Assembly: GCA_945875955.1 (NCBI GenBank)
Contig: CAMCNQ010000004.1
Span: 1 to 32,777, forward strand
Direction: 5' to 3'
Length of the DNA stretch: 32,777 nt
From: Limnohabitans sp. Rim8
Lineage (GTDB): Bacteria; Pseudomonadota; Gammaproteobacteria; Burkholderiales; Burkholderiaceae_C
A model generated the notes under the pieces. It searched no databases, had not been told where the DNA came from, and saw only the letters and a program-made list of their open reading frames with translations. This document shows, one piece after another, positions 5,945 through 23,212 of the stretch. The stretch's first letter is position 1. The number at the start of each line of letters is the position of its first letter. A program made the position numbers and the translations under genes.

Positions 5945-6394
5945 CTAAGCCAGCACGGCCATGGCGGCGGTCGCACGTGCCAGCACGCCACCACCCTGCG
6001 CGCGCCGGAGCTCTGCGGTGGCAAAAGCCAGGCGGCCTCCCAACTGGTCGATGCGTGCCACGGCGATAAGTTGGCCCGGCAGTACAGGCTTCTCGAAGTG
6101 GATGTTGAGCGAGACCGTCACCGCCACCTTGGGCAGCTCCAGCGCGCCGAGGACAGGGAACACCAGCGCGAGATCCAGCATCGTGCTCACCACGCCACCA
6201 TGGACGGCGCCGTTGCCCTGCATGTGGCGGTGTGTCGCCGTGAACCCCACCGTGAGGCTGCGCGCGACCGGGTCCCAGGTTTGCAGCACCATCGCCAGAT
6301 CGGCGGCCACAGGATTTGTGTCTATGGGCAGCGGCGCATCTGGCGCCTGCATGAACCGGCGCACCAGCAGCTGGTCGGGATTCTCGCCAGCCAT
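5945..6394 (-). CDS. PaaI-like hotdog-fold acyl-CoA thioesterase
   Basis: MAGENPDQLLVRRFMQ...HRHMQGNGAVHGGVVSTMLDLALVFPV...VTVSLNIHFEKPVLPGQLIAVARI; 2 nt from the upstream ligase gene. Confidence 0.82.
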   Translation of the reverse strand: MAGENPDQLLVRRFMQAPDAPLPIDTNPVAADLAMVLQTWDPVARSLTVGFTATHRHMQGNGAVHGGVVSTMLDLALVFPVLGALELPKVAVTVSLNIHFEKPVLPGQLIAVARIDQLGGRLAFATAELRRAQGGGVLARATAAMAVLA

Positions 6395-6396
6395 GG

Positions 6397-7962
6397 TCAG
6401 ATCTTGCGGTTGCGGCCTTCCCAGTAGGGTGCCCGCAGTTCGTTCTTGAGCACCTTGCCGGCGCCGGACAGCGGCAGCCGCTCGGGCCGCACGAGCACGC
6501 TGCGCGGCACCTTGTAGCCAGCGATCTTCTCGCGTGCCCAGGCCATCACCGCGTCCGGGGTGAGCGCCGCGCCATCGCGAGGCACCACGATGGCGTGCAC
6601 GCGCTCGCCCCACTTGTCGTCGGGAATGCCGATGACCGCCACCTCGGCCACCCCGGGCATCAGGGAGATCGCATTCTCCACCTCGGTGGAATAGATGTTC
6701 TCGCCGCCACTGATGATCATGTCCTTGAGCCGGTCGACGATGTAGACGTAGCCGTCCTCGTCCATCACGGCGGCGTCGCCGGTGTGGAACCAGCCGTTGC
6801 GCATCACTGCGGCGGTTTCGGCCGGCTTCTTCCAGTAGCCCTGCATCACCGTTGGGCCGCGCACCACGATCTCACCCGTGGTGCCGCGCGGCACCTCCTT
6901 GTCTTCGCTGTCCACCACCAGCACTTCCAGGTTGGGCATGGCCTGGCCGCAGGAGCGAAGGCGGTCACCGGCGATCGCGGGCTTGCGCATCGACATCGGA
7001 AGCATGGTGCCGATGGGCGACAGCTCGGTCATGCCCCAGCCGTGCAGGAACAGCATCTCGGGCCAGATCTCCACCGCGCGTTTCAGCGTGGCGTGCGGCA
7101 TCGGCGCGGAACCGAACATGAACTGGCGCAGGCTCGCGAGCGGCATGCTCTCGATGCCCGGCACCTCCAGCATCATCGCGATCATGGTGGGCACCAGGGT
7201 CACATTGGTCACCTTGTGTTCGGCGATCTGCTCCAGCACCTGCTGGGCATCGAACTTCGGGATGAAGGTGTGGGTGCCGGCCGCCATGGTGATGGCGAGC
7301 GTCGACATGCCATCGGTCAGGTGGCACATGGGCGCAGCGTGCAAAAAGATGCTGCTGGCGTCGTAGCCGATCATGTAGATGGCGTTGACGGCGTTCGACA
7401 CCAGGTTGCAGTGGGACAGCATCACGCCCTTGGGTCGGCCGGTGCTGCCGCCGGTGTAGAAGATGCCGGCGATGTCGTCGCCGCTGCGACCAGCGTCGGC
7501 CATCGGCTCGCTGCGCGCCACCAGATTGTCCCAGCCCACCATGCCGTCGAAAGGCACAGTGCCGTCGCCCAGGTACACCACGTGCTTCAGCGTGGGGCAG
7601 TGTTCGCGCAGGCCGGGCAGCAGCTCGATGAAGGCCTCGTCCAGGCACAGCACCAGCGCCTCGGAGTCGTTCAGCATGTACGCCAGGTCGGCGGCCGTCA
7701 AGCGCGTGTTCAGCGGCAGCATGATCGCGCCGGCCCAGGGCACCGCGTAGTAAGACTCGAAGTAACGGTCACTGTTCAATGCCAGGATGCCGATGCGGTC
7801 GCCTTCATTCACGCCCAGCTGACGCAGGCCTGCCGCCGCGCGGGCGACGCGTTCCACACTCTCGGCCCAGGTGCGGCGGCGTGTGCCGCAGAGCGTGGCT
7901 GCGCCGTTCGCGCACACCTGCGCCGCGCGCTTGAGGCTCTGGGTCAGGCTTTCTTTCATCAT
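6397..7962 (-). CDS. Acyl-CoA synthetase (AMP-forming, class I adenylate-forming ligase)
   Basis: MMKESLTQSLKRAAQ start; IFYTGGSTGRPKGVMLSH, GWGMTELSPIGT, GWFHTGDAAVMDEDGYVYIVDRLKDMIISGGENIYSTEVEN motifs. Confidence 0.93.
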   Translation of the reverse strand: MMKESLTQSLKRAAQVCANGAATLCGTRRRTWAESVERVARAAAGLRQLGVNEGDRIGILALNSDRYFESYYAVPWAGAIMLPLNTRLTAADLAYMLNDSEALVLCLDEAFIELLPGLREHCPTLKHVVYLGDGTVPFDGMVGWDNLVARSEPMADAGRSGDDIAGIFYTGGSTGRPKGVMLSHCNLVSNAVNAIYMIGYDASSIFLHAAPMCHLTDGMSTLAITMAAGTHTFIPKFDAQQVLEQIAEHKVTNVTLVPTMIAMMLEVPGIESMPLASLRQFMFGSAPMPHATLKRAVEIWPEMLFLHGWGMTELSPIGTMLPMSMRKPAIAGDRLRSCGQAMPNLEVLVVDSEDKEVPRGTTGEIVVRGPTVMQGYWKKPAETAAVMRNGWFHTGDAAVMDEDGYVYIVDRLKDMIISGGENIYSTEVENAISLMPGVAEVAVIGIPDDKWGERVHAIVVPRDGAALTPDAVMAWAREKIAGYKVPRSVLVRPERLPLSGAGKVLKNELRAPYWEGRNRKI

Positions 7963-7978
7963 GTCTCCAGTTCTAAGC

Positions 7979-8776
7979 TCAGCGGCCGTTGAATTGCGGT
8001 TTTCGCTTGGTGCGGAAGGCATCCACAGCCTCCATGAAGTCGTCGGTCTGCACCAGCGCAGCTTGGGCATCACGCTCGCGGTCGAGCTGGGCATCCAGCC
8101 CGTTCTCCAGCGCCGACCACATCACGCCAGGCAGCATGGCCAGCGCACGTGGCGCGCCTTGCGCGAGGCGCAGCGCGATGGCCTGTGACGTGGCGACGAG
8201 CGCGTCGTCGTCCACACATTGCCAGATCATGCCCCACTCGGCGGCCTGTTCCGCGGGGATGCGCTCGCCCAGCATGGCTAAGGCGATGGCGCGCGCTGGG
8301 CCGATGCGTCGCATCAGCTGCCAGCTGCCGCCCATGTCGGGCACCAGCCCCAGCTGCGCAGTGAAAGGCTGCTGGAAATAGGCACTGCGCCCGGCCACCA
8401 CAATGTCGGCCAGCAGCGCAAGCGAGGCGCCTCCGCCAACGGCAGCGCCGTTCACCGCACACACCTTGGGCTTGCCCAGCGCGGCAAGCGCGCGCGACAG
8501 GGCATGCACGCCCGTGTCGGTCGATGCCAAGAAGCGTTGCCCACGTTCAGCGGCGGGCAAGCCGACCCCCATCATCGGATCTCGCAGATCGGCACCGGCA
8601 CAAAAGCCACGGCCGCGGCCGGTGAGCAGCAACACGCGCGCCTCGGGCGCATGCTTTAAGCGTTCCAGCGTGGCCAGCAGTTGCTGGATCAAAGGCCCGT
8701 TCAAGGCATTCATCAATTCCGGCCGGTTAAGGGCCAAGGTGGCGACGCCGTTCGCGTCAATGTCGAGTTCGAGCAT
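7979..8776 (-). CDS. Enoyl-CoA hydratase/isomerase family protein
   Basis: NALNGPLIQQLLATLERLKHAPEARVLLLTGRGRGFCAGADLRD, GAAVGGGASLALLADIVVAGRSAYF crotonase motifs. Confidence 0.92.
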   Translation of the reverse strand: MLELDIDANGVATLALNRPELMNALNGPLIQQLLATLERLKHAPEARVLLLTGRGRGFCAGADLRDPMMGVGLPAAERGQRFLASTDTGVHALSRALAALGKPKVCAVNGAAVGGGASLALLADIVVAGRSAYFQQPFTAQLGLVPDMGGSWQLMRRIGPARAIALAMLGERIPAEQAAEWGMIWQCVDDDALVATSQAIALRLAQGAPRALAMLPGVMWSALENGLDAQLDRERDAQAALVQTDDFMEAVDAFRTKRKPQFNGR

Positions 8777-8785
8777 GGCCGCCGC

Positions 8786-9796
8786 TCAGATCTCGACGCA
8801 GACCTTGCCGAACTGCTGGCCGCTCTCGACGAAGCGCACGGCTTCGGCCAGGTTGGCCAGCGGCAGCACGCGGTCGATCACTGGCCGTATGCCGTTGGTG
8901 CCGCAGGCGGCAATCACCTGCTCCAGGTGCTGGCGGCTGCCCACAGCGATGCCGTGGATACGCAGGCTGCCCATGGAGACGATCGGCAAGTTCACCTCCG
9001 CCTTCGCGCCGCTCACCATGCCGATCAAAGTGATCATGCCGCCCAGGCGTGTGGCCCGGATCGACTGCTGTAGCGTGCCGGCGCCGGCCGTCTCCACCAC
9101 CAGGTCCACGCCCTGGCCGGCGGTGAGCTTGCGAGCGGTCTTGCCCCACTCGGCGTCTTCACGATAGTTGATGCCGTGCTGGGCGCCCAGGTTCAGCATC
9201 TTCTCCAGCTTCTGCGCCGTGGAAGAAATGGCGATCACGCGCGCACCCGCGGCGTGGGCGAACTGCAGCGCAAACAGGGCCACGCCGCCGGAGCCTTGCG
9301 TCAACACGATGTGCTCAGGCCCGATACCGGCATGGGCGCGCACCGCGTTCCAGGCTGTCACCGCCGCACAGGGCAGGGTGGCAGCCTCTACGAAGCTCAT
9401 GCTGGCGGGAATAGGCAGCAGTGCGTCTTCGGAAAAAACGCGCAGCTCGCAGGCCACGCCGTCGTTCATGCCACCCAAGTCCTGCTGCAGGAACCGCTCA
9501 TCTGGCGGGCCGGAGAGCCATCCCGGAAAGAAGGTGTTGACCACCCAGTCCCCGGACTTGAAGCGCCGCACGCCTGTGCCTACGTCCACCACTTCGCCTG
9601 CGCCGTCCGACAGCGGGATCAGCCCGTTGGTCTTCTGCCGCGATCCGTAGCCGCCGCGCAGCGCCAGCACGTCGCGGAAGTTCAAGGAGGCAGCGCGCAG
9701 CCGCACCAGCACCTGGCCAGGGCCGGGTTGCGGATCGGGCAGGTCTTTCAATTGCAGGTTCTCGGTGCCCAGCGACTCCATCACCATGGCTTTCAT
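8786..9796 (-). CDS. NAD(P)-dependent medium-chain dehydrogenase/reductase (quinone-oxidoreductase/alcohol dehydrogenase-like)
   Basis: MKAMVMESLGTENLQLKDLPDPQPGPGQVLVRLRAASLNFRDVLALRGGY; ALFALQFAHAAGARVIAISSTAQKLEK. Confidence 0.9.
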   Translation of the reverse strand: MKAMVMESLGTENLQLKDLPDPQPGPGQVLVRLRAASLNFRDVLALRGGYGSRQKTNGLIPLSDGAGEVVDVGTGVRRFKSGDWVVNTFFPGWLSGPPDERFLQQDLGGMNDGVACELRVFSEDALLPIPASMSFVEAATLPCAAVTAWNAVRAHAGIGPEHIVLTQGSGGVALFALQFAHAAGARVIAISSTAQKLEKMLNLGAQHGINYREDAEWGKTARKLTAGQGVDLVVETAGAGTLQQSIRATRLGGMITLIGMVSGAKAEVNLPIVSMGSLRIHGIAVGSRQHLEQVIAACGTNGIRPVIDRVLPLANLAEAVRFVESGQQFGKVCVEI

Positions 9797-9805
9797 GGAT
9801 TCTCC

Positions 9806-11917
9806 TTATTGGTTGTGGAAGCGCTGGCCGACTTCGGCGATGCGACGCAAGCGCTGCGGCGGGGTGAAGCGCGCGCCGAACTGGCTGGCGAGTTGGTCGC
9901 ACTCCGCCACGAAGCGCGCCGCACCGATGCGGTCGATATAGGCGAAGGGGCCGCCCAGGTGCGCGGGATAGCCCCAGCCCAGCACGGCGGCCACATCGCC
10001 GTCGATCGGATCCGCCAGGATGCCGTCGTCGAGGCAGCGAACGGCCTCGAGCGACTGCACGTGGAACAGGCGCCGCCGCACCGTCTCTTCGGTCAGCTCC
10101 GCGCGCCGAGGGAACAGTTCTGCCAAACCCGTCCAGATGTCGCGGCCCTGCTCGCTGTAGCCATACAGGCCCTTTCCCGCCACCTTGCCGATGCGGCCCG
10201 CCGCCAGCAGCTTCACCACCGTGTCTTCGGCGATGTTGCCGGCGTTGCCGATGCGTTGCCCGTCGCCGCGCATGGACTTGAGAATGTCGGACAGCAGCGG
10301 CAGCGTGGTCAGGTCAGCCAACGTCGCGCCACCCATCGCAAAACCGGCGTTCACCGCTGCGTTGTCGATCAGCTGCGCCGGCACGCCTTCACCGATGAGA
10401 TTCAGCGTCTCGCTGGAATAGGTGGTGACGATGCGGCTGGTGAAGAAGCCCAGGCCGTCGTTCACCACCACCGGCGTGCGTCCCAGCTGCTTCATGAAGT
10501 CGAGTGCACGCGCCAAGGTGGCGTCGTCCGTCTTCGCGGCGCGGATCACCTCGACCAGGGTCATGCGGTCCACCGGAGAGAAGAAATGCAGCCCGATCAC
10601 GCGAGCAGGCTGTGTCACATGCTGTGCCAGGCCGCCAATGGGCATGGTGGAGGTGTTGCTGGCGATGGGCACATCGGCGCCCACGGCTGCGGCCGCGCGG
10701 GCCAGCACCTCGTGCTTGATTTCAGCCTTCTCGAACACCGCTTCCAGCACGAAATCGGCTGTCGCAATGGCTGCGTAGTCGGCGCCGCCCGTGATGCGCC
10801 CCATCAACGTGTCCACCGGCATCGGCAACCGGCCCTTCTCGGCTTCCTTGTTGGCATGGGCGCGCATCGCGGCCACGCTCTTTGCGGCCGCTTCATCGTT
10901 CACGTCCAGCAGCGTCACGCGGATGCCGGCGAGTGCCGCCACATGGCCGATGCCGCGTCCCATCACGCCGCCACCCAGCACGGCCAGATGCTGCACCTTC
11001 AATGGGGGCAAACCCGCCGGACGCATCTTCATTGCGCGGGCACGGTTGACCCCGTTGAACAAGGTGCGAATCTTGTTCTTCGCGTCGCTGCCACTGGCCA
11101 GGCGCGCGAAGTGCCGCGTCTCGATCACCAGCCCTGCATCGATGCCGCGCTCCAGGCCCTGCTGCAGCACCTGGAGGATGGTGAGCGCCGCGAGGTTGTT
11201 GCCGCCGGCACTTTTCATGCTGCGGGCCCAGGCGCCCGTGAAAAACTGGCGGCCGGCCTGGGACTGCACAGAGAAGCCCGGCAGTGTGAAGCCCTTGCGG
11301 TCCCAAGGCTGGGTGGCGCCAGCGTTGGCCAGCACCCAGGCCTTGGCCGTGGCGAGCAACTGGTCGGCCGGCACCACCTCGTTGATCAGGCCCAGGGCCT
11401 TGGCGTCGGCCAGGGGCAGCCGCTTGCCTTCCAGCAGCAGCGGCGTGGCCGCAGCAATGCCTACCAGACGTGGCAGACGCTGCGTGCCCCCCGCGCCCGG
11501 CATCAGGCCGAGGGTGGCTTCGGGAAAGCCGAAGCGGGCAACAGGGTTGTCGGCGGCAATGCGGTGGTGGCAGGCCAGCGCCAGTTCGAGCCCGCCTCCC
11601 AGCGCGGTGCCGGGCATGGCTGCAGCCACCGGTTTGCCGCCTTGTTCGAGCTGGCGCAGGGCCAGCAGGAAGGGCGTAACGATGGCTTGAACGGCTTTGG
11701 GATCAGCCGCCGCCTGCAGTTCCTTCAGATCACCGCCGGCGATGAAGTCGCCCTTGTCTGAACCAATCAAGAGGCCTGTCACGCCGGGGTCGGCCAGCAA
11801 CTCGGCAGTCTTTTGCGCCAGCAGGCGGTTCAGGTCGCCCGATAGCGTGTTCACCGGGCCTTGGCAGGCGTACATCAGGGCCACGACGCCGTCGCCCAGG
11901 TCTTGTTGTCTGATCAT
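9806..11917 (-). CDS. FadJ/FadB-like bifunctional enoyl-CoA hydratase / 3-hydroxyacyl-CoA dehydrogenase
   Basis: N-terminal crotonase (FIAGGDLKEL, GTALGGGLELALACHHRIA) plus HCDH domain (LAVLGGGVMGRGIGHVAALAGIRVTLLDVN, IGLHFFSPVDRMTLVEVI); start MIRQQDLG at 11917. Confidence 0.92.
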   Translation of the reverse strand: MIRQQDLGDGVVALMYACQGPVNTLSGDLNRLLAQKTAELLADPGVTGLLIGSDKGDFIAGGDLKELQAAADPKAVQAIVTPFLLALRQLEQGGKPVAAAMPGTALGGGLELALACHHRIAADNPVARFGFPEATLGLMPGAGGTQRLPRLVGIAAATPLLLEGKRLPLADAKALGLINEVVPADQLLATAKAWVLANAGATQPWDRKGFTLPGFSVQSQAGRQFFTGAWARSMKSAGGNNLAALTILQVLQQGLERGIDAGLVIETRHFARLASGSDAKNKIRTLFNGVNRARAMKMRPAGLPPLKVQHLAVLGGGVMGRGIGHVAALAGIRVTLLDVNDEAAAKSVAAMRAHANKEAEKGRLPMPVDTLMGRITGGADYAAIATADFVLEAVFEKAEIKHEVLARAAAAVGADVPIASNTSTMPIGGLAQHVTQPARVIGLHFFSPVDRMTLVEVIRAAKTDDATLARALDFMKQLGRTPVVVNDGLGFFTSRIVTTYSSETLNLIGEGVPAQLIDNAAVNAGFAMGGATLADLTTLPLLSDILKSMRGDGQRIGNAGNIAEDTVVKLLAAGRIGKVAGKGLYGYSEQGRDIWTGLAELFPRRAELTEETVRRRLFHVQSLEAVRCLDDGILADPIDGDVAAVLGWGYPAHLGGPFAYIDRIGAARFVAECDQLASQFGARFTPPQRLRRIAEVGQRFHNQ

Positions 11918-11934
11918 TGGCTTCGATCCGTTCT

Positions 11935-13143
11935 TCAGATGCGTTCGATCAGTGTGGCCACGCCCAGCCCCAGGCCGGCGCACAGCGTCACGATGCCGGT
12001 ACGGGCGCCGCGGCGCTCCATTTCGTCGAGCAGCGTGCCCACCAGCATGCCGCCGGTGGCCCCGATTGGATGCCCCATCGCGATGGCGCCGCCATTGACG
12101 TTGACACGGTCGTGCGGTACCCCGGTCTCGCGCATGAATCTGAGCACCACCGAGGCGAAGGCTTCGTTCACCTCGAACAGGTCGATGTCTGCCAACTTGT
12201 AACCCCGTCTGGCAGCCGCGCGGCGCGCCGCTTCCGCAGGCGCCACCAGCATCAGGCAAGGGTCGCAGGCGGTCGTGGCTGAGGCCGTGATGCGTGCACG
12301 GGGCTTGAGCCCGAGTTGCCGGCCCACTTCTTCCGAGCCGATCAGAATCGCACTGGCACCATCCACCATGCCGGATGAATTGCCGCCGGTGTGCAGATGA
12401 TGCAGGCGATTGACCTGCGGATAGCGCTGCTTCACCGTCTCGCCAAAACCGCCCTTGGTGGCCATGTCGGCGAAGGCTGGCTTGAGCTTGCCGAGCGACT
12501 CGACAGTGGTGCCGGGGCGCACGATCTCGTCGCGCTCCAGGCAAATGGCGCCATTGAAGTCGCGCACCGGCACCACGGATTTCGCAAATCGGCCTTCGCT
12601 CCAGGCGAGGGCGGCCCGGGCCTGGGACTCGGCGGCGTAAGCGTCCACGTCATCGCGCGTGTGGCCTTCCAGCGTGCCCAGCAGGTCGGCGGCCACGCCC
12701 AGCGGCGTGAAGTTGGTCGTCGTGTTGAAGAACGCGTCACTGCCCCAGGGTCCGCCAGTGCCAGCGATGGGGATCAACGACATCATCTCCACCCCACCGG
12801 CGACCAGCAGGTCGCCGTGCCCGGCCACCACCTTCGCAGCGGCCAGGTTGACGGCGTCGAGGCCGGAGGCGCAAAAGCGGCTGATCACGCTGCCGGGAAT
12901 GGCGTCGCCCAGCCCGGCGTGCAGCGCCGAAGAACGCGCCAAGTTGGCGCCCTGGTCGTCCACGCCATCGCCCACCCCGAAGATCACGTCTTCGACAGGT
13001 AGCCGATCAAACCCGGTGCGGTCGCGCAGGGCGGTGAGCACGGTGGCCCCGAGATCGATGGGCGAGAGGGTGTGCAGCGCCCCGCTTGAGCGAGCGGCGC
13101 CACGCGGCGTGCGCACAGCATCGTAAATAAAAGCTTCAGACAT
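11935..13143 (-). CDS. Acetyl-CoA C-acyltransferase (thiolase)
   Basis: MSEAFIYDAVRTPRGAARSSGALHTLSPIDLGATVLTAL; VISRFCASGLDAVNLAAAKV; NVNGGAIAMGHPIGATGGML; TLCAGLGLGVATLIERI. Confidence 0.94.
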   Translation of the reverse strand: MSEAFIYDAVRTPRGAARSSGALHTLSPIDLGATVLTALRDRTGFDRLPVEDVIFGVGDGVDDQGANLARSSALHAGLGDAIPGSVISRFCASGLDAVNLAAAKVVAGHGDLLVAGGVEMMSLIPIAGTGGPWGSDAFFNTTTNFTPLGVAADLLGTLEGHTRDDVDAYAAESQARAALAWSEGRFAKSVVPVRDFNGAICLERDEIVRPGTTVESLGKLKPAFADMATKGGFGETVKQRYPQVNRLHHLHTGGNSSGMVDGASAILIGSEEVGRQLGLKPRARITASATTACDPCLMLVAPAEAARRAAARRGYKLADIDLFEVNEAFASVVLRFMRETGVPHDRVNVNGGAIAMGHPIGATGGMLVGTLLDEMERRGARTGIVTLCAGLGLGVATLIERI

Positions 13144-13149
13144 ATGAGA

Positions 13150-13155
13150 ACCATA
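13150..13155 (-). promoter_or_regulatory. Putative -10 hexamer (TATGGT) for the thiolase operon
   Basis: Begins at the 22nd nt after the 20-bp operator 13177-13196 on the minus strand; predicted TSS falls on the ATG at 13143. Confidence 0.5.
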
Positions 13156-13176
13156 GAGAAAACCCTAGACAGGTGC

Positions 13177-13196
13177 TGTCGTCCGCAACTACGACA
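13177..13196. promoter_or_regulatory. 20-bp inverted-repeat operator A1 (TGTCGTCCGCAACTACGACA)
   Basis: Perfect 6-bp arms TGTCGT/ACGACA with N8 spacer; the reverse complement matches 17/20 positions of the operator at 14916-14935. Confidence 0.8.
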
Positions 13197-13216
13197 TGTC
13201 CTGTTTTGCTACGACA
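13197..13216. promoter_or_regulatory. 20-bp operator A2 (TGTCCTGTTTTGCTACGACA) abutting A1
   Basis: Directly adjacent to A1; TACTAT at 13239-13244 is a -10 candidate at the corresponding spacing (+1 nt). Confidence 0.75.
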
Positions 13217-13289
13217 GCGCAACCCCGGATAGGGCCCCTACTATCAGAGGAACACGCTCTGCGTATGCCTACACATCTAAGGAGACACC

Positions 13290-14264
13290 ATGAAACTGCT
13301 CTGGACACGCCGCGCACTCGGCATCGTGATCGCTGCGGCCGCGCTGACCGCTGGCGCGCAGGAGGCTTACCCCAACCGTCCCGTCAAACTCGTGGTCGGG
13401 TTTGCGCCCGGCGGCGGCGGCGACAGCGTGGCCCGACTGGTGGCTGAGCACATGGGGCGCACGCTCAAGCAACAGGTGGTCGTCGAGAACCGGCCGGGTG
13501 CCGGCACCACGCTGGCACCTGCTGCCGTGGCCGCTGCAGCGCCGGATGGCTATACCCTGCTGCTGGCGCCTGACTCCGTGTTCGGCCCCGACAAAGTGAT
13601 GTGGGCGCCCAACGCCAAATACGACGAGACCAGCTTCACGCCCATCAGCAAGCTGGCCAGCACCTTTTTCGTGCTGGCGGCGAACAAAGACTTCGGTGTG
13701 CGCACGGTCGCCGAGCTGATGGCCAAGGCCCGCGCCGACAAGGGCGAGTTGTTCGTGGCGTCGACGCAGGGGCTCTATCCGGCGCTGATCATGGAGAACT
13801 TCAACCGGGCTTCCGGTCTCAAGCTCAACCAGGTCCCCTACAAGGGCGGTGCGCCATCGGTGCTGGCCGTGGTGTCAGGCGAGGTGCCGGTGACGTTCGC
13901 GGTGCCGAGCTCCGTGATGCCCATGGTCAAGGACGGCAAGCTCGTGGCATTGGCGGTCACCAGTGCCAACCGCTCTGCGCTGACTGAGGGGGTGCCCACG
14001 CTGGCGGAATCGGGCATGCGGGGCTTTGACGTCGGCTACTGGTTCGGCCTGGCCGGACCGGCGGGCTTGCCAGCGGACATCACCCAGAAGCTGTTCGATG
14101 CCGCCTCTTCGGCGCTGGCGGACCCTGCCGTGCGCGCCCGCCTGAACACCCTGGGCTACGAGCCCGCGCCTTCGAAGTCGAGCGCGGAATTCCGGGCACA
14201 GGCCATCCAGGACGGCGCTGCGCTGCGCAAGATCGTGGAGACGCTGGGCATCAAGGGCAACTGA
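13290..14264 (+). CDS. Tripartite tricarboxylate transporter substrate-binding protein (TctC/Bug family), copy 1
   Basis: YPNRPVKLVVGFAPGGGGDSVARLVAEHM, VVVENRPGAGTTLAPAAVAAAAPDGYTLL; SD aaggag before ATG. Confidence 0.94.
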   Translation: MKLLWTRRALGIVIAAAALTAGAQEAYPNRPVKLVVGFAPGGGGDSVARLVAEHMGRTLKQQVVVENRPGAGTTLAPAAVAAAAPDGYTLLLAPDSVFGPDKVMWAPNAKYDETSFTPISKLASTFFVLAANKDFGVRTVAELMAKARADKGELFVASTQGLYPALIMENFNRASGLKLNQVPYKGGAPSVLAVVSGEVPVTFAVPSSVMPMVKDGKLVALAVTSANRSALTEGVPTLAESGMRGFDVGYWFGLAGPAGLPADITQKLFDAASSALADPAVRARLNTLGYEPAPSKSSAEFRAQAIQDGAALRKIVETLGIKGN

Positions 14265-14395
14265 GTATGCGGCCGCGGTGCGTGGGCACGAAGAGCACAT
14301 CAGCAACCGCCTCACCCCTACCCAGCGCGCAACGTTCAACCCACTCATCTGCAGGACTTTTCAGGGTCCGGCCCCGTTCGCATACAGGAGAACAG

Positions 14396-14850
14396 ATGTT
14401 CAACTGTGAGATGCCCATCGATGGCCAGTCGGTCGGCGCGCGCTCGGCCAGCGCTTTGAAACCATGAACCCGGCGATGGGCAAGCAATGGGCCTTCATAC
14501 CGAGGGCGAATCCCGACATCGTCGACCATGCCGCCCATCGAGAAGCGCAGCATCTTCAACCACGCACTTTTGGAGCCCGTGGGCCTGGGGGTGGCGATCA
14601 CCCCTTGGAACTCGCCCCTGCTGCTGGCCGTGAGCAAGCTCGCAGCAGCAATGGCTGCGGGCTGTACGTTGGTGATGAAGCCTTACGAACACGCGTCTGC
14701 ATCGCTGCTTGAATTTGCCGGGTTGGTCGAGAAGGCCGGGATTCCCCCTGGCTTGGTGAACGTGGTCAAAGGCTATGGCCACGAGATCGGCGACGCCCTC
14801 GTGTCGCAGCCGTAGGGGGCGAAGATCGGCTTCATGGGCGGCAGGGTCGA
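14396..14850 (+). pseudogene. Aldehyde dehydrogenase remnant (frameshifted N-terminus, internal segment, in-frame stop)
   Basis: Frame-split MFNCEMPIDGQSVG + GQRFETMNPAMGK, then LEPVGLGVAITPWNSPLLLAVSKLAAAMAAGCTLVMKPYEHASASLLEFAGLVEKAGIPPGLVNVVKGYGHEIGDAL (14528-14815), TAG, then KIGFMGG. Confidence 0.85.
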
Positions 14851-14915
14851 CTTCACACGCGTTGTGCAAGGGCTCGATGCCCTGTGGCGCGCAGATTAGC
14901 CTGCGTAGGTGCTCG

Positions 14916-14935
14916 CGTCGTAGTTGCAAACGACA
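14916..14935 (+). promoter_or_regulatory. 20-bp operator C (CGTCGTAGTTGCAAACGACA) upstream of the LigM-like gene
   Basis: Same 20-bp inverted repeat as A1 (17/20); followed after 21 nt by TATCGT (14957-14962). Confidence 0.78.
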
Positions 14936-14987
14936 ACTTCGCGATGCCATTGTGTCTATCGTTGCACATACAACTTCATCTTCTGCC

Positions 14988-16319
14988 ATGGCACCTATCC
15001 ATCCACAACGCCACGCCATCGACCGCACCGTTTCGTGGGGCAAGGACGAATACACCAACTGGATGGACGAGAGCATGTCGTGGAAGACGACCTGCTACGT
15101 CGGCGACTGGAGCTGGTTGCCGGAGCTGAACGTTCGCGGCCCCGACGCCGAACGCCTGCTCTGCGACTTCACAGTCATCAGCCTGGCGGCTCAAGAGATC
15201 GGTCAGGCCAAGCATGCGATCTTCTGCAGCCACACTGACAAGGTGCTGGGCGAAGGCGTGCTGGCGCGCCTGGGTCCGCAAGAGTTCGAGCTCAATGCGT
15301 CCGGTCCGGTCAATCTTTGGCTGCAATACAACCTCGCGCGCGGCGGCTACAACGCAGTGGCTGAACTGCGGCGTACCAAGACCAAGCTGCAGGTCTCGGG
15401 GCCGAATGCGCTGTACCTGCTGGAAAAGCTCGCGCGGGAAAGCCTGCGCGACATCAAGTTCATGCGCTTTCGCGTCGTGCCACTGGCAGGCTGCGACGTC
15501 GCCTTCCTGCGACAGGGCATGGCGGGCGAGATCGGCTTCGAGCTGCATGGCCCGATCGCGCAGCTGGACCAGATGCTGAATGCCATCCTGGAAGCCGGAC
15601 AGGCGTTCGGCATCCGCCGCCTCGGCTCCCGCACAGCGCTCATCAATCACCTGGAAGCCGGCTTCCCCACGGTGAACCTGGACTATCTCCCCGCCACTGC
15701 CGACACGGCGGAGCGCGAGTTCTTCGATCGGTACCACACGCAGCTGGCCCCGATCGACACCATCGAGTGGCGCGTGGGCGTGGCCCGCGTGCTCAAGGTG
15801 CGCGGCAGCTTCGAGGGCGACGACATCACCGCTTGGTACCGCAGCCCCGTGGAGCTCGGGTGGGCGCGCAACATCAAGTTCGACCACAACTTCCATGGCC
15901 GCGCGGCACTGGAGGCCGAAGTCGCTGCACCCCGGAGCAGCATCGTCGCGCTGGTCTGGAATGCCGACGACGTGCAGGAGGTCTACGCCTCGCACTTCGA
16001 CGGCAGTCCACAGCCCTGCGAGTACATGGACATGCCGCGTTCGCTGCTGGTGTGCACCTATGCCAGCCGGGTGCTGGCAGGCGGCCGGGACGTCGGGGTG
16101 GCCACCTCACGCGGCTACAGCTTCTACTACCGCAAGATGATCTCGCATGGCGTGATCGACCTCGGCTACGCCCTGCCGGGCACTGAAGTCACGGTTATCT
16201 GGGGCGAGCCGGGCAAGCGGCAAAAGGAGATTCGCGCCGTCGTCCACCCCTACCCTTTCAAGCGCAACGCGAACCGCGAGACGGACCTCGCGGCGCTGCC
16301 CGCGCGCCCTAACGCCTGA
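14988..16319 (+). CDS. GcvT-fold aminomethyltransferase family protein, LigM/DesA-like tetrahydrofolate-dependent O-demethylase candidate
   Basis: 443 aa from MAPIHPQRHAIDRTVSWGKDEYTNWM; FRQGMAGEIGFELHGP-type region (LRQGMAGEIGFELHGP), SFEGDDITAWYRSPVELGWARNIKFDHNFHGRAALEAE, ALVWNADDVQEVYASHF, matching the layout recalled for LigM. Confidence 0.75.
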   Translation: MAPIHPQRHAIDRTVSWGKDEYTNWMDESMSWKTTCYVGDWSWLPELNVRGPDAERLLCDFTVISLAAQEIGQAKHAIFCSHTDKVLGEGVLARLGPQEFELNASGPVNLWLQYNLARGGYNAVAELRRTKTKLQVSGPNALYLLEKLARESLRDIKFMRFRVVPLAGCDVAFLRQGMAGEIGFELHGPIAQLDQMLNAILEAGQAFGIRRLGSRTALINHLEAGFPTVNLDYLPATADTAEREFFDRYHTQLAPIDTIEWRVGVARVLKVRGSFEGDDITAWYRSPVELGWARNIKFDHNFHGRAALEAEVAAPRSSIVALVWNADDVQEVYASHFDGSPQPCEYMDMPRSLLVCTYASRVLAGGRDVGVATSRGYSFYYRKMISHGVIDLGYALPGTEVTVIWGEPGKRQKEIRAVVHPYPFKRNANRETDLAALPARPNA

Positions 16320-16340
16320 CCAAAGATGGGGGCAAGAACC

Positions 16341-16651
16341 ATGCGTGCAGACCTCGAAAAGGCCAACGGAATGGCCAATGCGCTGTACCGCCTGCTGTTT
16401 GGACTCGCGGTTGCCGTTATGCTCCTCATGGCTGTCCACATCTTCCTGAGTGTTTGCAGCCGCTTGTTTATTCAGGCACCGCGACCGAGGCGGGCGCGAT
16501 CGGTGTGGTGCCAACCCTGGTTGTCGCAACGTCGCGTCGGCAGCTCAGCCAAGCCTTGCTCTTGAAGGCCCTGCGCTTCTCGGTCCACGCCACTGCGCAG
16601 ATTCGCTTCATTGCCCGGGATGCCATTCCCTTGACGCACCTGAAGGGCTAA
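16341..16651 (+). pseudogene. Fused TRAP transporter DctQ/DctM remnants
   Basis: DctQ-like N-terminus MANALYRLLFGLAVAVMLLMAVHIFLSVCSRLFI, then in another frame a DctM-like stretch GTATEAGAIGVVPTLVVATSRRQLSQALLLKALRFSVHATAQI. Confidence 0.6.
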
Positions 16652-16895
16652 TCGGCTGTGCCCACCTTCCTGGCCCCGTTGGTGCAGGGCGAGAACAACG
16701 CGCTCTTGTTCATGCTGGCGTCGGTGGTGGATGCGTCGGCCATGCCGACCACCGTCAGCGGCAACACCCATGCGCCGAAGACCATGATCGCGAAAAAGGC
16801 GGCGGACCTGATCAAGGCCGCCGCAGCGGCACAAGGCCTCTCGCGCACGGCCTGGCAGGGCACCGACTCAGGGCGCGGGCACGCTGACACAGAAG

Positions 16896-18275
16896 CTACA
16901 AATCCAAAGCCGAAAGATCGCCGGCCGTCTCCAGCGCCCCTATTCGCGCTGCAGCGTTTTGTGCCTGTGCCCGCGTCAGCGGGTCTGTGGCATAGCCCGC
17001 GCAATCGATGAACTTGTCCAGTAACTGCTCATCGCTCATGGGCCGCAGCGGATCGCCCAATGGCCGGTCCACGACTTGAAACAAGGTACGGCCATCGCGC
17101 AAGCTCAGCCGCAGTGTGCCGCGCAACGCATCTTCCAGGCCACCGGTGCTGCGCACCTCGCAGCCAAAGCGCTGTGCCAGGGCCAGCACCTCCGGGTGCG
17201 CCAATGCCTCGGCCGAGAAATCGGCCAGCGTCAGCTGCCCATGCACCAGCGCCGCTGCGGTAGTGAAAGGGATGCTGAACTTCGCGTCATTGGCGGTCTG
17301 CGGGCGCTGCTTCTGGGCAGCCGGCGTGCACAGCATGCCGAATGTGGCGCTCACCTCGACCGTTACTTGCTCGATCTCGTGCGCTTGCAGGGCATGCGCT
17401 TCGCGCAGGATGAGCGCGGCCTCGACAAAAGGATGCGTGCCCCGACACGAGGGCCAGGGTTTGAAGCTGAGCTTGTCCACTTCCCACGAGTGGCCCAGGC
17501 CGCACGTGAGCCGCTCGGCGTCGAAGCGGCCGCCGGTGTACATGGCAAACAGGCCGTGGTCACCCTCGATCGGCCGGTCGTAGCACTGCACGCCGCGGCT
17601 GGCCAGCAGCACGGCGGTGATGGCCGCCTGAGCCGCCAACCCATCGCGGATTTCGCGCATGTGCGAGGGCGCATAACCGAAGAAGCCCTTGCTGCAGGTG
17701 ACCTGGCTGAACGCGAGGGCGAAAGCCTCCACCATCTGCGGCGCATCCAGCCCGAGCAGGCGGCCGGCCGCCGCGACCGCGCCACAGGTACCCAGCAGCG
17801 GACGGATCACCCAGCCGCGCGGCGTGTCGTCGTCGCCCATCGCCATGCCGAGGCGGCAGGTCAGATCGGCGCCAACCGCCATGGCGGTGATGAACTCGGC
17901 GCCACCGACGTTGCCGCGCAGGTGCGCCGCGGCCAGCGCCGCGGGCAAGGCTGTGCCATTCGGGTGCACCAGGCCAGCGTCGTGCGTGTCCTCGTAGTCC
18001 AGCGCGTGCGACATGGCGCCGTTGACAAGGGCCGCCACCGCAGGCGCTGCGCTGAGTTTGTGGCCCAGGATGCGGCAGGGGCCGCTGCCGCTGACGCGCG
18101 CAAGGTCGACGAAGGCCGCCGTGACCTGGCCCTGCGTGCCTGCTGCCAGGGCCACGCCGAATGCGTCGACCAGGCTGCGCTTGACCGAGGCCACCGTGCC
18201 CTGCGAGAGCTCGTCGAAGCGCACGCCCACCGCATGGCGCGCGAGCGCGAGCGACAGGTCGATGTGCTCACTCAT
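16896..18275 (-). CDS. MmgE/PrpD family protein
   Basis: MSEHIDLSLALARHAVGVRFDELSQGTVASVKRSLVDAFGVALAA; MSHALDYEDTHDAGLVHPNGTALPAALAAA; WPSCRGTHPFVEAAL. Confidence 0.9.
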   Translation of the reverse strand: MSEHIDLSLALARHAVGVRFDELSQGTVASVKRSLVDAFGVALAAGTQGQVTAAFVDLARVSGSGPCRILGHKLSAAPAVAALVNGAMSHALDYEDTHDAGLVHPNGTALPAALAAAHLRGNVGGAEFITAMAVGADLTCRLGMAMGDDDTPRGWVIRPLLGTCGAVAAAGRLLGLDAPQMVEAFALAFSQVTCSKGFFGYAPSHMREIRDGLAAQAAITAVLLASRGVQCYDRPIEGDHGLFAMYTGGRFDAERLTCGLGHSWEVDKLSFKPWPSCRGTHPFVEAALILREAHALQAHEIEQVTVEVSATFGMLCTPAAQKQRPQTANDAKFSIPFTTAAALVHGQLTLADFSAEALAHPEVLALAQRFGCEVRSTGGLEDALRGTLRLSLRDGRTLFQVVDRPLGDPLRPMSDEQLLDKFIDCAGYATDPLTRAQAQNAAARIGALETAGDLSALDL

Positions 18276-18476
18276 CTTTCTGTCCAGTGCTGAGACGGTC
18301 TTGCGCAGCGTGGCGTGCCGGCTGCGAAGCTGCGGCTCCGCCCGCGCCTTGTTGCACGCGTCGAAGCGCTTCTGCAGCACATCGTCTGACTGGCCGAGGG
18401 CGCGCGCCTTGTGGCCCAAGCCGAACCGGCGAAATCCGCAGAGGCCCCAGGCTGTCCGTTCACCTGCATGGCGCGC

Positions 18477-19049
18477 TCAGTCAGCGAGCAGCTTGCGCAG
18501 CAAGCGGGTGAGCTGTTCGCGTTCGGATTCCGGCAAGGGCCTGCAGATGCGCGTCTCGTGCTCGCGCACGGCAGCTTCGTAGGCCACCAGCCTGGCCTGG
18601 CCGCGCGCCGAAAGCGCCAGCGCCCCAATGCGCTTGTCGCTGGGAATGGGGTAGGTCTCCACCAGCCCCATATCGACCAGGTGATTGACGATTTTCAGCG
18701 CCGCCGGTCTGGCGATGTCCAGCGCTCGGGCGATGTCCACCTGCCGCACCCCCGGGTTGGCACCAATGATCGACAACGCGGTGAAGCGTGCGGGGGTGAT
18801 CTCGTCCTCCTCAAGGGTGACCAGGAAGCTCGCGTAGATCTTGTTGTCCAGACGGCGCACCAAGTAGCCGAAGTAGGACGCCATGTGGTCGACGTCCAAA
18901 TTAGACGGTGCCGAGTAGGCGTACTGGTCGATCACGCCGCCGTGGCCGACCATGGTGCGCTTGCGCGTCGCGGCAGTGGCTGCCGCAGCGGCGCGCAGCC
19001 CCTTGCGAACGGCCGGGCGGTTGTCATTCATGGACAGGTCCTTGGGCAT
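18477..19049 (-). CDS. MarR-family transcriptional regulator
   Basis: SYFGYLVRRLDNKIYASF...ITPARFTALSIIGANPGVRQVDIARALDIARPAALKIVNHLVDMGLVETYPIPSDKRIGALALSARG; start MPKDLSMNDN (19049) or MNDN (19031). Confidence 0.88.
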   Translation of the reverse strand: MPKDLSMNDNRPAVRKGLRAAAAATAATRKRTMVGHGGVIDQYAYSAPSNLDVDHMASYFGYLVRRLDNKIYASFLVTLEEDEITPARFTALSIIGANPGVRQVDIARALDIARPAALKIVNHLVDMGLVETYPIPSDKRIGALALSARGQARLVAYEAAVREHETRICRPLPESEREQLTRLLRKLLAD

Positions 19050-19053
19050 GGCA

Positions 19054-19950
19054 TCAAGCGATGTGCACCAGCTTGGTGCTGTTCTGGACATGATGGTTCG
19101 GCAGGGTGACCCGGGCGGGTGCTGCAGTCGGGTTCATGGCGCGCCAGCGCAGGACTGTGGCAAACAGTTCCTGACGCGAGGCCACTCCGAGCTTTTCGTA
19201 GGCGCGCATGCGGTACGTGGCCACGGTGGTGGCGCGCAGCTTCAGGTCTTGGGCAATGCGGTTGACAGTGACACCGTCGAGGATGCGCGTGAGAACCTCG
19301 CGTTCCCGCCCTGTCAGCCGCGCGCCGAGTTCCGCCACGCCTTCGCTAACGCTGCCGCGCAAGGAGGCCATGCCATCTGTGTCGGTTGCGTAATGCCGGG
19401 CGACGCAGCGGGCAAGCAGTGTCGCCACGCCGATCAGACCCTCGATCTGGCGGGCGTCAAAGGGGCCGTGCGCCGAGCCGCGGTACAAGTGGGCCGTGAC
19501 CCAACACGATTCGCCGGTGCGCACCAGCAGGGTCAGGCGGTCCACCAGCCCGATCGCTTCCATGCACTCCCGGCGGTATGAGCCGATGGGCATTTCTTCG
19601 ACTGTCTGGCGGGCGACCAGCGTCACGCCCACTGGCCCCGCCGCGGGCTTGCGGTCGATCACCTGGCGCAAGCTGTCCTGGCTAGCGAACTCGCGCGCAT
19701 GCTGTGCGCCGGAGTGGAACGCCACCCAGGGCCCGCCTTCGGCGGCCCAGGAGAGCAGGCGCGGATTGCGCTGGGCTTCGTGGGCGAACACCGTACACTG
19801 CTTGGCCTCGAGCACGGGCCGGACCGCCGCGAGGATGCAGGACGCCAGCGACTCCGGGTCCTGGCTGCCGATCGCGTCGACCAGCGCCGCGACAACTTCC
19901 GCGTCCACCATCCGGTGCGGCGAAGACGGTTCCACCACCCATGTCTGCAT
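19054..19950 (-). CDS. LuxR-family transcriptional regulator (C-terminal LuxR HTH, uncharacterised N-terminal sensory region)
   Basis: C-terminus LTGREREVLTRILDGVTVNRIAQDLKLRATTVATYRMRAYEKLGVASRQELFATVLRW is a typical LuxR HTH. Confidence 0.92.
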   Translation of the reverse strand: MQTWVVEPSSPHRMVDAEVVAALVDAIGSQDPESLASCILAAVRPVLEAKQCTVFAHEAQRNPRLLSWAAEGGPWVAFHSGAQHAREFASQDSLRQVIDRKPAAGPVGVTLVARQTVEEMPIGSYRRECMEAIGLVDRLTLLVRTGESCWVTAHLYRGSAHGPFDARQIEGLIGVATLLARCVARHYATDTDGMASLRGSVSEGVAELGARLTGREREVLTRILDGVTVNRIAQDLKLRATTVATYRMRAYEKLGVASRQELFATVLRWRAMNPTAAPARVTLPNHHVQNSTKLVHIA

Positions 19951-19998
19951 GCCCTGTCTCCTTCTGAAGTTGGTCGCTACTGGATGTCAAGTTAAGCT

Positions 19999-20015
19999 TG
20001 TTAACCAGGTTAACA
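19999..20015. promoter_or_regulatory. Perfect 17-bp palindrome TGTTAAC-CAG-GTTAACA (candidate MarR-type operator)
   Basis: Direct reading: agcTTGTTAACCAGGTTAACATT; just upstream of a TTGACA (-35-like; TGTCAA on + at 19985-19990) directed to luxR-marR. Confidence 0.6.
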
Positions 20016-20117
20016 TTATTGAGTGGCAGGCCACGCGGCGAACATGCGTGAAAACCCGTAGTTCACCTGGCACGTGTGGGGCGAATGCTTCCCGCGGCTG
20101 TGTGCAGCCGGACGCGG

Positions 20118-20137
20118 TGTCCTGTCTAAGCACGACA
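20118..20137 (+). promoter_or_regulatory. 20-bp operator D (TGTCCTGTCTAAGCACGACA)
   Basis: Matches TGTCST-N8-ACGACA; TAGCAT (20159-20164) begins at nt 22 after the operator; predicted TSS at about the ATG at 20171. Confidence 0.72.
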
Positions 20138-20170
20138 GGTCGGGTGCCGCGCTTGGGCTAGCATGTGAGC

Positions 20171-22048
20171 ATGACCACATTGGACAGCGCGCCGTATCGC
20201 CGTATTGCTCTTGGCTCACGCCAAGTCCACGCAGAGCATCGCGCCGACGGCAGCATCTTGGTGCGGTCCGTCGAACCCCTGGCGTCCTACCCGCGCAAGT
20301 TGACGGATCGCCTGCAAGAGGCAGCGCGCGAGTTCCCGGACCGTCTCTTCCTGGCGATACGGGACCGCAGCAGCCCAGATCGCTGGCGCGAACTGCACTA
20401 TGGCGAAGCCTGGGAGCGCGTGCAGCGAATCGGCCAGGCCTTGCTGGACCGCGGCCTGTCGCAGCACAGGCCCGTGGCCATCCTCAGCGGCAGCAGCATC
20501 GAGCACGCACTGCTCGCGCTGGCCGCCATGCACGTGGGCGTGCCGCACTGCGCCATCACCCCCGCTTATTCGCTGCTTTCCGACGACCACGTGAAGCTGC
20601 GCCATGTGCTCGACCTGCTAAAGCCCGGCCTGGTGTTCGCGGACGACGCTGCCGCGTTCGGCCGGGCCATCGACCGCACTGTGCCCGACGGCGTGGAACT
20701 GGTGCATTCCTTACGCGCATCCCCGGGGCGAGCGAGCACGCCATTCGAGCGTCTGCTCGCGCAGCCCGCTGGCCCGGACCTTGCCGCAGCCAGCGCCAGA
20801 GTTGCGCCCGAGTCGGTGGCCAAGGTCCTGTTCACCTCGGGCTCCACTGGCTTGCCCAAGGGCGTCATCAATACCCAGCGCATGGTGGCCTGTAACCAAC
20901 AGATGTTCGTACAGTCCATGCCGTGCATCACCCAGCAGCCGCTGGTGATCTTGAGCTGGCTGCCCTGGCACCACACATCCGGCGGCAACCAGATGATGGG
21001 GCTGACCCTGCACTGCGGCGGAACGTTCTACGTCGACGACGGCAAGCCGCTTGTGGGCGAAGTGGACAAGACAATTGACAACCTGCGGGAGATCGCGCCC
21101 ACCGTCTATTTCAGCGTGCCGCGCGGCTTTGCGGCGCTGGTGCCTGCCCTGCGCGCTGACGCGGACCTGCGCGCGAATTTCTTCTCCCGGCTTTCGCTGC
21201 TGTACTACTCGGGTTCCGCACTCGCCGCATCGCTGGTGAAGGATCTCGACGAACTGGCTGTGCAGACCATCGGTGAACGCATCCCCATGATGTCCGGCTA
21301 TGGTGCCACCGAGACGGCGCCCGCCGCCGTGGGTGCCAACTGGCTCACCAGCGAGACCGGCTTGGCGGGTCTGCCCCTTCCTGGTTGTGAATTGAAACTG
21401 GCACCGGTGGAATCGGGCAAGTACGAGGCCCGGCTGCGCGGACCAAACGTGACGCCGGGCTACTGGGGCCAGCCGGCGTTGAGCGCCAAGCTGTTCGATG
21501 AAGAGGGCTTTGCGCGCATGGGCGACGCGCTGTCGTTCGTCGTGCCCGGAGAGATCACGCAGGGGCTGGCCTTCGACGGCCGCATCGCCGAAGACTTCAA
21601 GCTGAGCACCGGCACCTTCGTCGGCGTAGGCACTCTGCGTGCGAAGCTGGTTCATGCGGGCGATGGCCTGTTCCTCGATGCGGTGATCGCCGGGGAAGGC
21701 CGCGATGAGGTCTGCGCGCTGGTGGTCGTCGATGTGGCGGTGTGCAGTGCCACCTGCGGATTGCCCAACGGTACGCCCCTGAGTGCCCTTGTGGTGCATC
21801 CTGCTTTGCGTCTGCGCCTGCAGACAGTGATCGACGACCTCGCCGCGCGGGCGACTGGCAGCTCCACTTATGTGGCGCGGGCCATTTTGCTCGGCGATCC
21901 ACCGAATGGTGCCGATGGAGAGCTGACCGACAAGGGCTCGATCAATGCGCGTGCGTTCCTGTCCAACCGGCCCACCTTGCTGGACCGCCTGTATGCGCAG
22001 CCCGCGGACGCGCAGGTGTGCGTCGCCCGCACGGGCGGCCGCCGCTAG
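20171..22048 (+). CDS. Feruloyl-CoA synthetase-like acyl-CoA ligase
   Basis: LASYPRKLTDRLQEAAREFPDRLFLAIRDR...ITPAYSLLSDDHVKLRHVLDLLKPGLVFADD; VLFTSGSTGLPKGVINTQRM; MMSGYGATETAP; DGRIAEDFKLSTGTFVGVG. Confidence 0.88.
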   Translation: MTTLDSAPYRRIALGSRQVHAEHRADGSILVRSVEPLASYPRKLTDRLQEAAREFPDRLFLAIRDRSSPDRWRELHYGEAWERVQRIGQALLDRGLSQHRPVAILSGSSIEHALLALAAMHVGVPHCAITPAYSLLSDDHVKLRHVLDLLKPGLVFADDAAAFGRAIDRTVPDGVELVHSLRASPGRASTPFERLLAQPAGPDLAAASARVAPESVAKVLFTSGSTGLPKGVINTQRMVACNQQMFVQSMPCITQQPLVILSWLPWHHTSGGNQMMGLTLHCGGTFYVDDGKPLVGEVDKTIDNLREIAPTVYFSVPRGFAALVPALRADADLRANFFSRLSLLYYSGSALAASLVKDLDELAVQTIGERIPMMSGYGATETAPAAVGANWLTSETGLAGLPLPGCELKLAPVESGKYEARLRGPNVTPGYWGQPALSAKLFDEEGFARMGDALSFVVPGEITQGLAFDGRIAEDFKLSTGTFVGVGTLRAKLVHAGDGLFLDAVIAGEGRDEVCALVVVDVAVCSATCGLPNGTPLSALVVHPALRLRLQTVIDDLAARATGSSTYVARAILLGDPPNGADGELTDKGSINARAFLSNRPTLLDRLYAQPADAQVCVARTGGRR

Positions 22049-22067
22049 GCCACCGCGGAAAGCCGCC

Positions 22068-22562
22068 TCATACCACCTGCCAGAAGCGGAACACCGAGTG
22101 GTCGGTTTGCCGGTTGGCCGTGCCCACAAACACCGTGCGGTTCATCCAGTCGTGATCGCCCACGGGCGCCTCGAAGAACGGGGACAAGCGCATGTAGTAT
22201 TCGCTGGAATCCACCGGGTCCAGGCGCTCCATGCGGGCCGTGACCTCCGGCGTGGCGTAGCGGAAGCCGCGGTTCTTTACCAGGATCAGCGTGCCGTCGT
22301 CGGCCTGCACCATGTAATTGGCAGTGAACTCTACCGCTCCGTTGGGCCAGTACATCGGGTAGTCACCACCGCTGTGCGGCACCACTTTGCCATTGAGTTT
22401 CGGTCCCTTCACCTCGCCGCCGACGACGCCGGTGTAGCCGCGGATGGAGCCGTTGGGCAGGGTGCCCATCTTCACCCGCAGGGAAAACTGCACCCGAAAG
22501 GCAAAGGCAAATTCGAGCTTGGGCGCGGGAAGAGTCTCAAAATTGAAGTCGGAAGCGGTCAA
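22068..22562 (-). CDS. DUF3237 (UPF0311) family protein, copy 2
   Basis: KLEFAFAFRVQFSLRVKMGTLPNGSIRGYTGVVGGEVKGPKLNGKVVPHSGGDYPMYWPNGAVEFTANYMVQADDGTLILVKNRGFR. Confidence 0.85.
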   Translation of the reverse strand: MTASDFNFETLPAPKLEFAFAFRVQFSLRVKMGTLPNGSIRGYTGVVGGEVKGPKLNGKVVPHSGGDYPMYWPNGAVEFTANYMVQADDGTLILVKNRGFRYATPEVTARMERLDPVDSSEYYMRLSPFFEAPVGDHDWMNRTVFVGTANRQTDHSVFRFWQVV

Positions 22563-22597
22563 GGCAAGGTCCTCAGTTGGGATCAGGTTAGTCGAGG

Positions 22598-23083
22598 CTA
22601 GAGCACCGTGTAGTAGCGGATCACGTTGCCAATTTCCAGGCGTGCGCCCACTCCGATGAACAGGTGGCGGGTGAGCCAGTCGTGCGGGCCCGGCGGCGTC
22701 TCAAACGTGGGCGAGCAGCGGAAGTAATAAGACGCGGGGTCGACGCTCATCCCGGGTGTCAGCTTGTAGAGCTTCTCCATCACGTCGGGCGGTCCATGGC
22801 GGTAGCCGCGGTTCTGAATGTAGATGAGCGTGCCGTCGTCTTCCTGCATGAAGTAGCGGGCATCGAAGCAGAAAACGCCGTCGGTGCGCACGTGCGGGAA
22901 CTCACCCCCGTGGTTGAGCACCTTGCCGCGCAGCTTTGGACCTTCGAACTGGCCGTCGACCACCGGCACCGACAGCCGCGCCCCTCCCACCGGTGGGTTC
23001 TCCATACGAAGGCGCGGTGCCAGCGTGAGCCGCGTCTCGAAAGCAAACTCCAGGCGCGGGAAGAACGGGTCATCAATGGTCAT
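22598..23083 (-). CDS. DUF3237 (UPF0311) family protein, copy 1
   Basis: RLEFAFETRLTLAPRLRMENPPVGGARLSVPVVDGQFEGPKLRGKVLNHGGEFPHVRTDGVFCFDARYFMQEDDGTLIYIQNRGYRHGPPDV; paralogous to the neighbouring ORF. Confidence 0.85.
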   Translation of the reverse strand: MTIDDPFFPRLEFAFETRLTLAPRLRMENPPVGGARLSVPVVDGQFEGPKLRGKVLNHGGEFPHVRTDGVFCFDARYFMQEDDGTLIYIQNRGYRHGPPDVMEKLYKLTPGMSVDPASYYFRCSPTFETPPGPHDWLTRHLFIGVGARLEIGNVIRYYTVL

Positions 23084-23089
23084 GCGACG

Positions 23090-23095
23090 ACGATA
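23090..23095 (-). promoter_or_regulatory. Putative -10 hexamer TATCGT for the DUF3237 pair
   Basis: nt 22-27 downstream of operator B1 on the minus strand; predicted TSS at the ATG (23083). Confidence 0.5.
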
Positions 23096-23116
23096 TCAGC
23101 GCCTGCGCCGCAGGGC

Positions 23117-23136
23117 TGTCCTATTCGGCTACGACA
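23117..23136. promoter_or_regulatory. 20-bp operator B1 (TGTCCTATTCGGCTACGACA)
   Basis: 17/20 match to A2; correct spacing to a minus-strand -10. Confidence 0.75.
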
Positions 23137-23143
23137 ACGCACT

Positions 23144-23163
23144 TGTCGTACCTGGATAGGACG
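23144..23163 (+). promoter_or_regulatory. 20-bp operator B2 (TGTCGTACCTGGATAGGACG)
   Basis: Fits TGTCST-N8-ASGACA except the last base; TATCTT (23185-23190) begins at nt 22 after the operator. Confidence 0.65.
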
Positions 23164-23212
23164 GCGGCCGCTTGCGGCGGGTGCTATCTTGCCCAACAAA
23201 CCCGAGGAGACC

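Follow-up and report, generated by a model that had tools for sequence, protein, structure and literature searches.

In the 32,777-nt stretch of Limnohabitans sp. Rim8 analyzed here (hereafter the window), the divergent promoter between a thiolase gene and the solute-receptor gene tctC1 contains two 20-bp near-palindromic sites, A1 (TGTCGTCCGCAACTACGACA, 13177-13196) and A2 (TGTCCTGTTTTGCTACGACA, 13197-13216), which abut with zero gap at 13196/13197, exactly as a first-pass annotation of the letters had described. These 40 bp are best read, with a probability of roughly 0.77, as two separate dimer sites for class II activation by a LuxR-type protein, with the LuxR protein of the same gene cluster as the regulator and a MarR protein repressing luxR-marR one step above it. 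Under the proposed mechanism, one LuxR-type dimer would occupy each 20-bp site, centered at approximately -43 and just upstream of the expected -35 position, and would recruit RNA polymerase to a -10 element that has no recognizable -35 (a class II, lux-box-like arrangement); the CouR-like MarR protein would repress the luxR-marR promoter until a substrate CoA-ester (likely a hydroxycinnamate) releases it, after which LuxR would turn on all six promoters of the cluster (Table 1).

Table 1. Coordinates of the genes, 20-bp sites and predicted promoter elements in the window; offsets are counted from the end of the site to the start of the -10 element.
Feature	Position	Strand	Remarks
Six-gene CoA operon	5945..13143	-	Pfam/NCBIfam matches and conserved gene order
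4HBT thioesterase	5945-6613	-	CoA operon
Acyl-CoA ligase	6397-8094	-	CoA operon
Enoyl-CoA hydratase (ECH)	7979-8776	-	CoA operon
ADH	8786-9796	-	CoA operon
FadJ-type dehydrogenase/hydratase	9806-~11917	-	CoA operon
Thiolase	11935-13143	-	CoA operon
-10 of thiolase operon, TATGGT	13150..13155	-	Begins 22 bp past A1; predicted TSS 13143
A1	13177..13196	-	TGTCGTAGTTGCGGACGACA when read toward its own promoter; predicted activator site, thiolase operon
A2	13197..13216	+	TGTCCTGTTTTGCTACGACA; predicted activator site, tctC1
-10 of tctC1, TACTAT	13239..13244	+	Begins 23 bp past A2; predicted TSS ~13251
tctC1, tripartite tricarboxylate-type solute receptor	13290..14264	+	PF03401; ATG at 13290 with AAGGAG
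Operator of GcvT/DesA-LigM-like O-demethylase gene	14916..14935	+	
-10 of O-demethylase gene, TATCGT	14957..14962	+	Offset 22
GcvT-fold gene	14988..16319	+	Top NCBIfam matches DesA/LigM O-demethylases, below cut-off
MarR family regulator	18477..19091	-	Pfam MarR; nearest solved structure CouR, 6c28
LuxR-type regulator	19054..19950	-	C-terminal GerE HTH; proposed activator at the operators
Palindrome GTTAACN3GTTAAC, GTTAACCAGGTTAAC	20000..20014		luxR-marR promoter region; perfect palindrome-like repeat, proposed MarR operator
Operator of acyl-CoA synthetase (feruloyl-CoA-synthase-like) gene	20118..20137	+	
-10 of acyl-CoA synthetase gene, TAGCAT	20159..20164	+	Offset 22
Acyl-CoA synthetase	20171..22048	+	Variovorax plasmid orthologue annotated feruloyl-CoA synthase
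-10 of DUF3237 pair, TATCGT	23090..23095	-	Offset 22
Operator of DUF3237 pair	23117..23136	-	
Operator of tctC2	23144..23163	+	
-10 of tctC2, TATCTT	23185..23190	+	Offset 22; ATG at 23213, 50 bp offset

The distance from site to -10 element recurs across seven clusters, namely that of the window, those of four genomes found via the LuxR protein, one on a Variovorax plasmid and one in a further genome (LuxR orthologue searches in 398 order-level and 400 family-level genomes yielded one new cluster, and a genus-level search added only G859, apparently the genome of cluster L048). Together they hold 37 sites for 38 promoters, one physical site (L059:19138) having a -10 element on both sides, and in divergent pairs each promoter has a site of its own. 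A TANNNT hexamer begins 22 bp past the end of the site in 25 of the 38 promoters and at 21-23 bp in 31, against a background of 0.12% at other offsets, and most of the remaining promoters carry CAGAAT, CACAAT or CAACAT at the -10 place; because promoters were assigned by the same -10 element and by gene position, and the orthologues are related, this test of the geometry is strong yet not fully independent. A distance of 22 bp puts the site center at about -43 from the predicted starts, and since that distance is fixed, A1 probably serves the thiolase operon and A2 tctC1. The first-pass annotation had already suggested that each site may serve one direction, with A1 rightly spaced to a minus-strand -10 (TATGGT, 13155-13150, 22 bp past the site) and A2 nearly so to a plus-strand -10 (TACTAT, 13239-13244, 23 bp); the spacings are confirmed, and the division between the two promoters gains strong support from the seven clusters, in which nearly every copy of the site has a -10-like hexamer on one side. 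What the annotation called "operator" is better read as an activator site, as it lies just upstream of the expected -35 position and no -35 is evident. Scanning the thiolase/tctC1 promoter with the sigma-70 consensus gave no match. The lone terminator-like call in that promoter was discarded as the A1 palindrome itself.

A classical lux box has the core CTGN10CAG, and this CTG/CAG core is absent from the 37 sites, positions 3-5 of which read TCS and positions 16-18 SGA. The cluster LuxR protein possesses a GerE-type HTH (PF00196, E=6e-14); a Pfam search with E up to 0.1 gave no Autoind_bind match, and as no Pfam domain at all was found N-terminal to GerE, the protein gives no sign of an autoinducer domain (its predicted structure is poor, with a pLDDT of 45). 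What the sites share with the class II arrangement at the lux box of the Vibrio fischeri luxI promoter, a 20-bp dyad at -42.5 (PMC3376562; PMC7585371), is the 20-bp inverted-repeat form, the lack of a -35 and the GerE-type protein; their center, at about -43 from the predicted starts, would match as well. They would thus belong with lux-box class II promoters in their way of working only, since neither the CTG/CAG core nor the autoinducer domain is present. Unlike the lux box, moreover, the sites conform to TGTCSTN8ASGACA, serve six promoters of one catabolic cluster and show an asymmetry of the inner half-sites that is set by promoter direction.

This asymmetry, in which the promoter-distal half is T-rich and the other half lacks the matching A (25 sites versus 5, p = 0.0003; 22 versus 5 on distinct sequences only, p = 0.0015), orients A1 and A2 tail-to-tail, each toward its own gene; the head-to-tail arrangement initially described is an error that arises from reading both near-palindromes on the top strand. 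The spacing of the pair is 20 bp (abutting) in the window, in its close relative L046 and in L047, but 29 bp in G692, 31 bp in L048, 33 bp in L049 and 46 bp in L059, while other divergent site pairs lie 25, 25, 26, 27, 27, 44 and 121 bp apart. A reading of the 40 bp as one cooperative unit, in which two same-face dimers would stabilize each other and couple both promoters, could draw on the three clusters with exact abutment, on 20 bp being nearly two helical turns and on the partner site falling at about -63 for each promoter, a possible class I position; it is nevertheless unlikely, given that the orthologous pair is more widely spaced in the four other clusters, that the other divergent pairs (25-27, 44 and 121 bp) are out of helical phase and that ACSL2 and GcvT are each served by a single site. 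The initial proposal of cooperative binding on one DNA face therefore finds no support as a requirement, since the spacings share no helical phase and other promoters are served by one site, and phased cooperativity is unlikely to be needed where exact abutment is not conserved. Abutment would instead be the closest that two independent sites can be packed, with no conserved cooperative unit.

If transcription starts at 13143 and 13251 as predicted and each polymerase extends to about -55, the two enzymes would just touch where A1 and A2 join. Three target genes also look leaderless, with an ATG at the predicted +1 in the window at 13143 (thiolase), 20171 (acyl-CoA synthetase) and 23083 (DUF3237 pair). 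A start codon 34-35 bp past the site, and thus at the predicted +1, recurs for the acyl-CoA synthetase in each of the five clusters whose promoter was read, for DUF3237a in three of four clusters, for the thiolase in three of seven and for MmgE on the plasmid (start codons were taken from alignments or, for L059, from annotation). It is tentatively conceivable, though doubtful, that these features define a distinct class of LuxR operator, with a rigid 22-bp operator-to--10 rule, mRNAs that are often leaderless (ATG first) and back-to-back activator-polymerase complexes that, on abutting sites, would have no free DNA for upstream alpha-CTD contacts, such that the polymerases would either have the neighboring dimer in common as a class I contact or be mutually exclusive.

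The motif TGTCSTN8ASGACA describes a six-site local regulon within the window, and its specificity was gauged in the host's own draft genome (3.0 Mb, 80% complete, 347 contigs), where exact copies of TGTCSTN8ACGACA are limited to window positions 13177, 13197, 20118 and 23117, and one-mismatch copies lie at 14916 and 23144 in the same cluster. At one mismatch the looser motif alone is unspecific (29 matches versus 22 for a reversed control), whereas the operator followed by 21 bp and TANNNT, at no more than one mismatch, gives five matches, all within the cluster, a count far from chance. The pattern of operator plus -10 is likewise confined to the corresponding cluster regions in the four other host genomes that were searched whole. 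Across the 37 sites of the seven clusters the arms GTC..T / A..GAC are invariant, a core that also served as the search criterion. No description of the cluster or the motif was found in the literature searched.

As all seven clusters carry both luxR and marR, the protein that binds the operator had to be sought beyond them, and the choice between LuxR and MarR draws on more distant relatives. When 300 genomes of the family (299 other than the host) were searched for operator plus -10 without regard to genes, six matches were returned in five other genomes, a number not clearly above the three of a reversed-pattern control; the informative aspect is not the count but the position of the matches beside LuxR genes and the sequence they have in common. 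Homologues of the cluster LuxR lie within 1.5 kb of four of these six matches, in three of the five genomes, while in the remaining two genomes no LuxR relative of this type turned up around the sites (G487, and G515, which has only a response regulator there), and none of the five 20-kb loci around the matches contains a MarR homologue. Similarly, operator plus -10 is present in 3 of 29 LuxR-type loci, all three from one genus, as opposed to 0 of 28 MarR-type loci. Because operator loci elsewhere adjoin LuxR homologues and not MarR, the LuxR/GerE protein is the most likely binder of the 20-bp operator. A variant operator, YGTCATCTTAAGGGAGGACA, also with a -10, is located directly upstream of distant LuxR homologues in the same genus (L022:2283, L023:2363 and L024:2321), and may represent a related motif used by further proteins of this LuxR subfamily.

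The MarR protein (E=2e-20 against the CouR structure 6c28) appears to have a site of its own. GTTAACN3GTTAAC occurs upstream of luxR in seven of seven clusters, exactly or with at most two mismatches and sometimes repeated, and strong matches are found only there in these clusters, not in the catabolic promoters. Given that CouR is the nearest solved relative and that the palindrome precedes luxR in all seven clusters, the CouR-like MarR probably represses luxR-marR through it. CouR proteins of Rhodococcus jostii and Rhodopseudomonas palustris, which are p-coumaroyl-CoA-responsive MarR repressors, resemble the present case in having the closest solved structure and in a hydroxycinnamate-type gene cluster, and in R. 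jostii the binding of p-coumaroyl-CoA lifts the repression of hydroxycinnamate genes by CouR (PMC4737184). By contrast, the likely palindrome of the cluster MarR is confined to the luxR-marR promoter region, and the protein would hence act through LuxR and not directly on the catabolic promoters. Direct repression (or activation) of the CoA genes by MarR bound at TGTCSTN8ASGACA, on the model of CouR in Rhodococcus, might be argued from the presence of MarR in seven of seven clusters, from an HTH almost invariant in the five aligned and from the direct repression of catabolic genes by CouR-type regulators in other bacteria (PMC4737184). This is improbable, however, because in other genomes the operator loci have LuxR homologues without a MarR homologue, none of the 28 MarR-type loci has the operator, the half-sites are 14 bp apart center to center, wider than in the R. 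jostii CouR box with its short arms and 5-bp spacer (PMC4737184), and the conserved palindrome of the luxR-marR promoter fits MarR better. Least probable is binding by a regulator whose gene lies in another part of the genome, for which the 80% completeness of the draft and the presence of other GerE-type proteins leave room, but against which stand the confinement of the operators to the cluster in five genomes and their proximity to LuxR homologues in others.

With regard to the genes under this predicted control, the six-gene CoA operon named at first pass holds, comprising genes for a thiolase, a FadJ-type protein, an ADH, an ECH, an acyl-CoA ligase and a 4HBT thioesterase, and the cluster further contains MmgE/PrpD, MarR, LuxR, two DUF3237 genes, tctC2 and an enoyl-CoA hydratase. 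Region 6397-24984 has a GC content of 66% versus 60% in its flanks, and no close LuxR orthologue was found among the 36 same-genus genomes searched; together these suggest horizontal transfer, and the region is probably an acquired catabolic island. Its substrate is likely a methoxylated hydroxycinnamate. Between tctC1 and the O-demethylase gene, a broken aldehyde-dehydrogenase-like frame spans 14390-14816; L046 has a comparable remnant, and G692 has a stretch as well. The same operator in G692 (L060:17753-17772) faces a gene that resembles purU (formyl-THF hydrolase) by eye; such a gene under the operator would fit the recycling of C1 units from O-demethylation.

Taken as a whole, the analysis offers a base-level prediction of a full regulon, with six promoters, an activator and an upstream repressor, for a cluster of apparently mobile plant-aromatic degradation genes that is distributed over several Burkholderiales, on chromosomes as well as on a Variovorax plasmid. 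It also supplies a new searchable motif for LuxR proteins of a subfamily in which no ligand domain is recognized, and the natural series of gaps between the thiolase and tctC1 sites, from 0 to 26 bp, constitutes a ready test of back-to-back class II activators.
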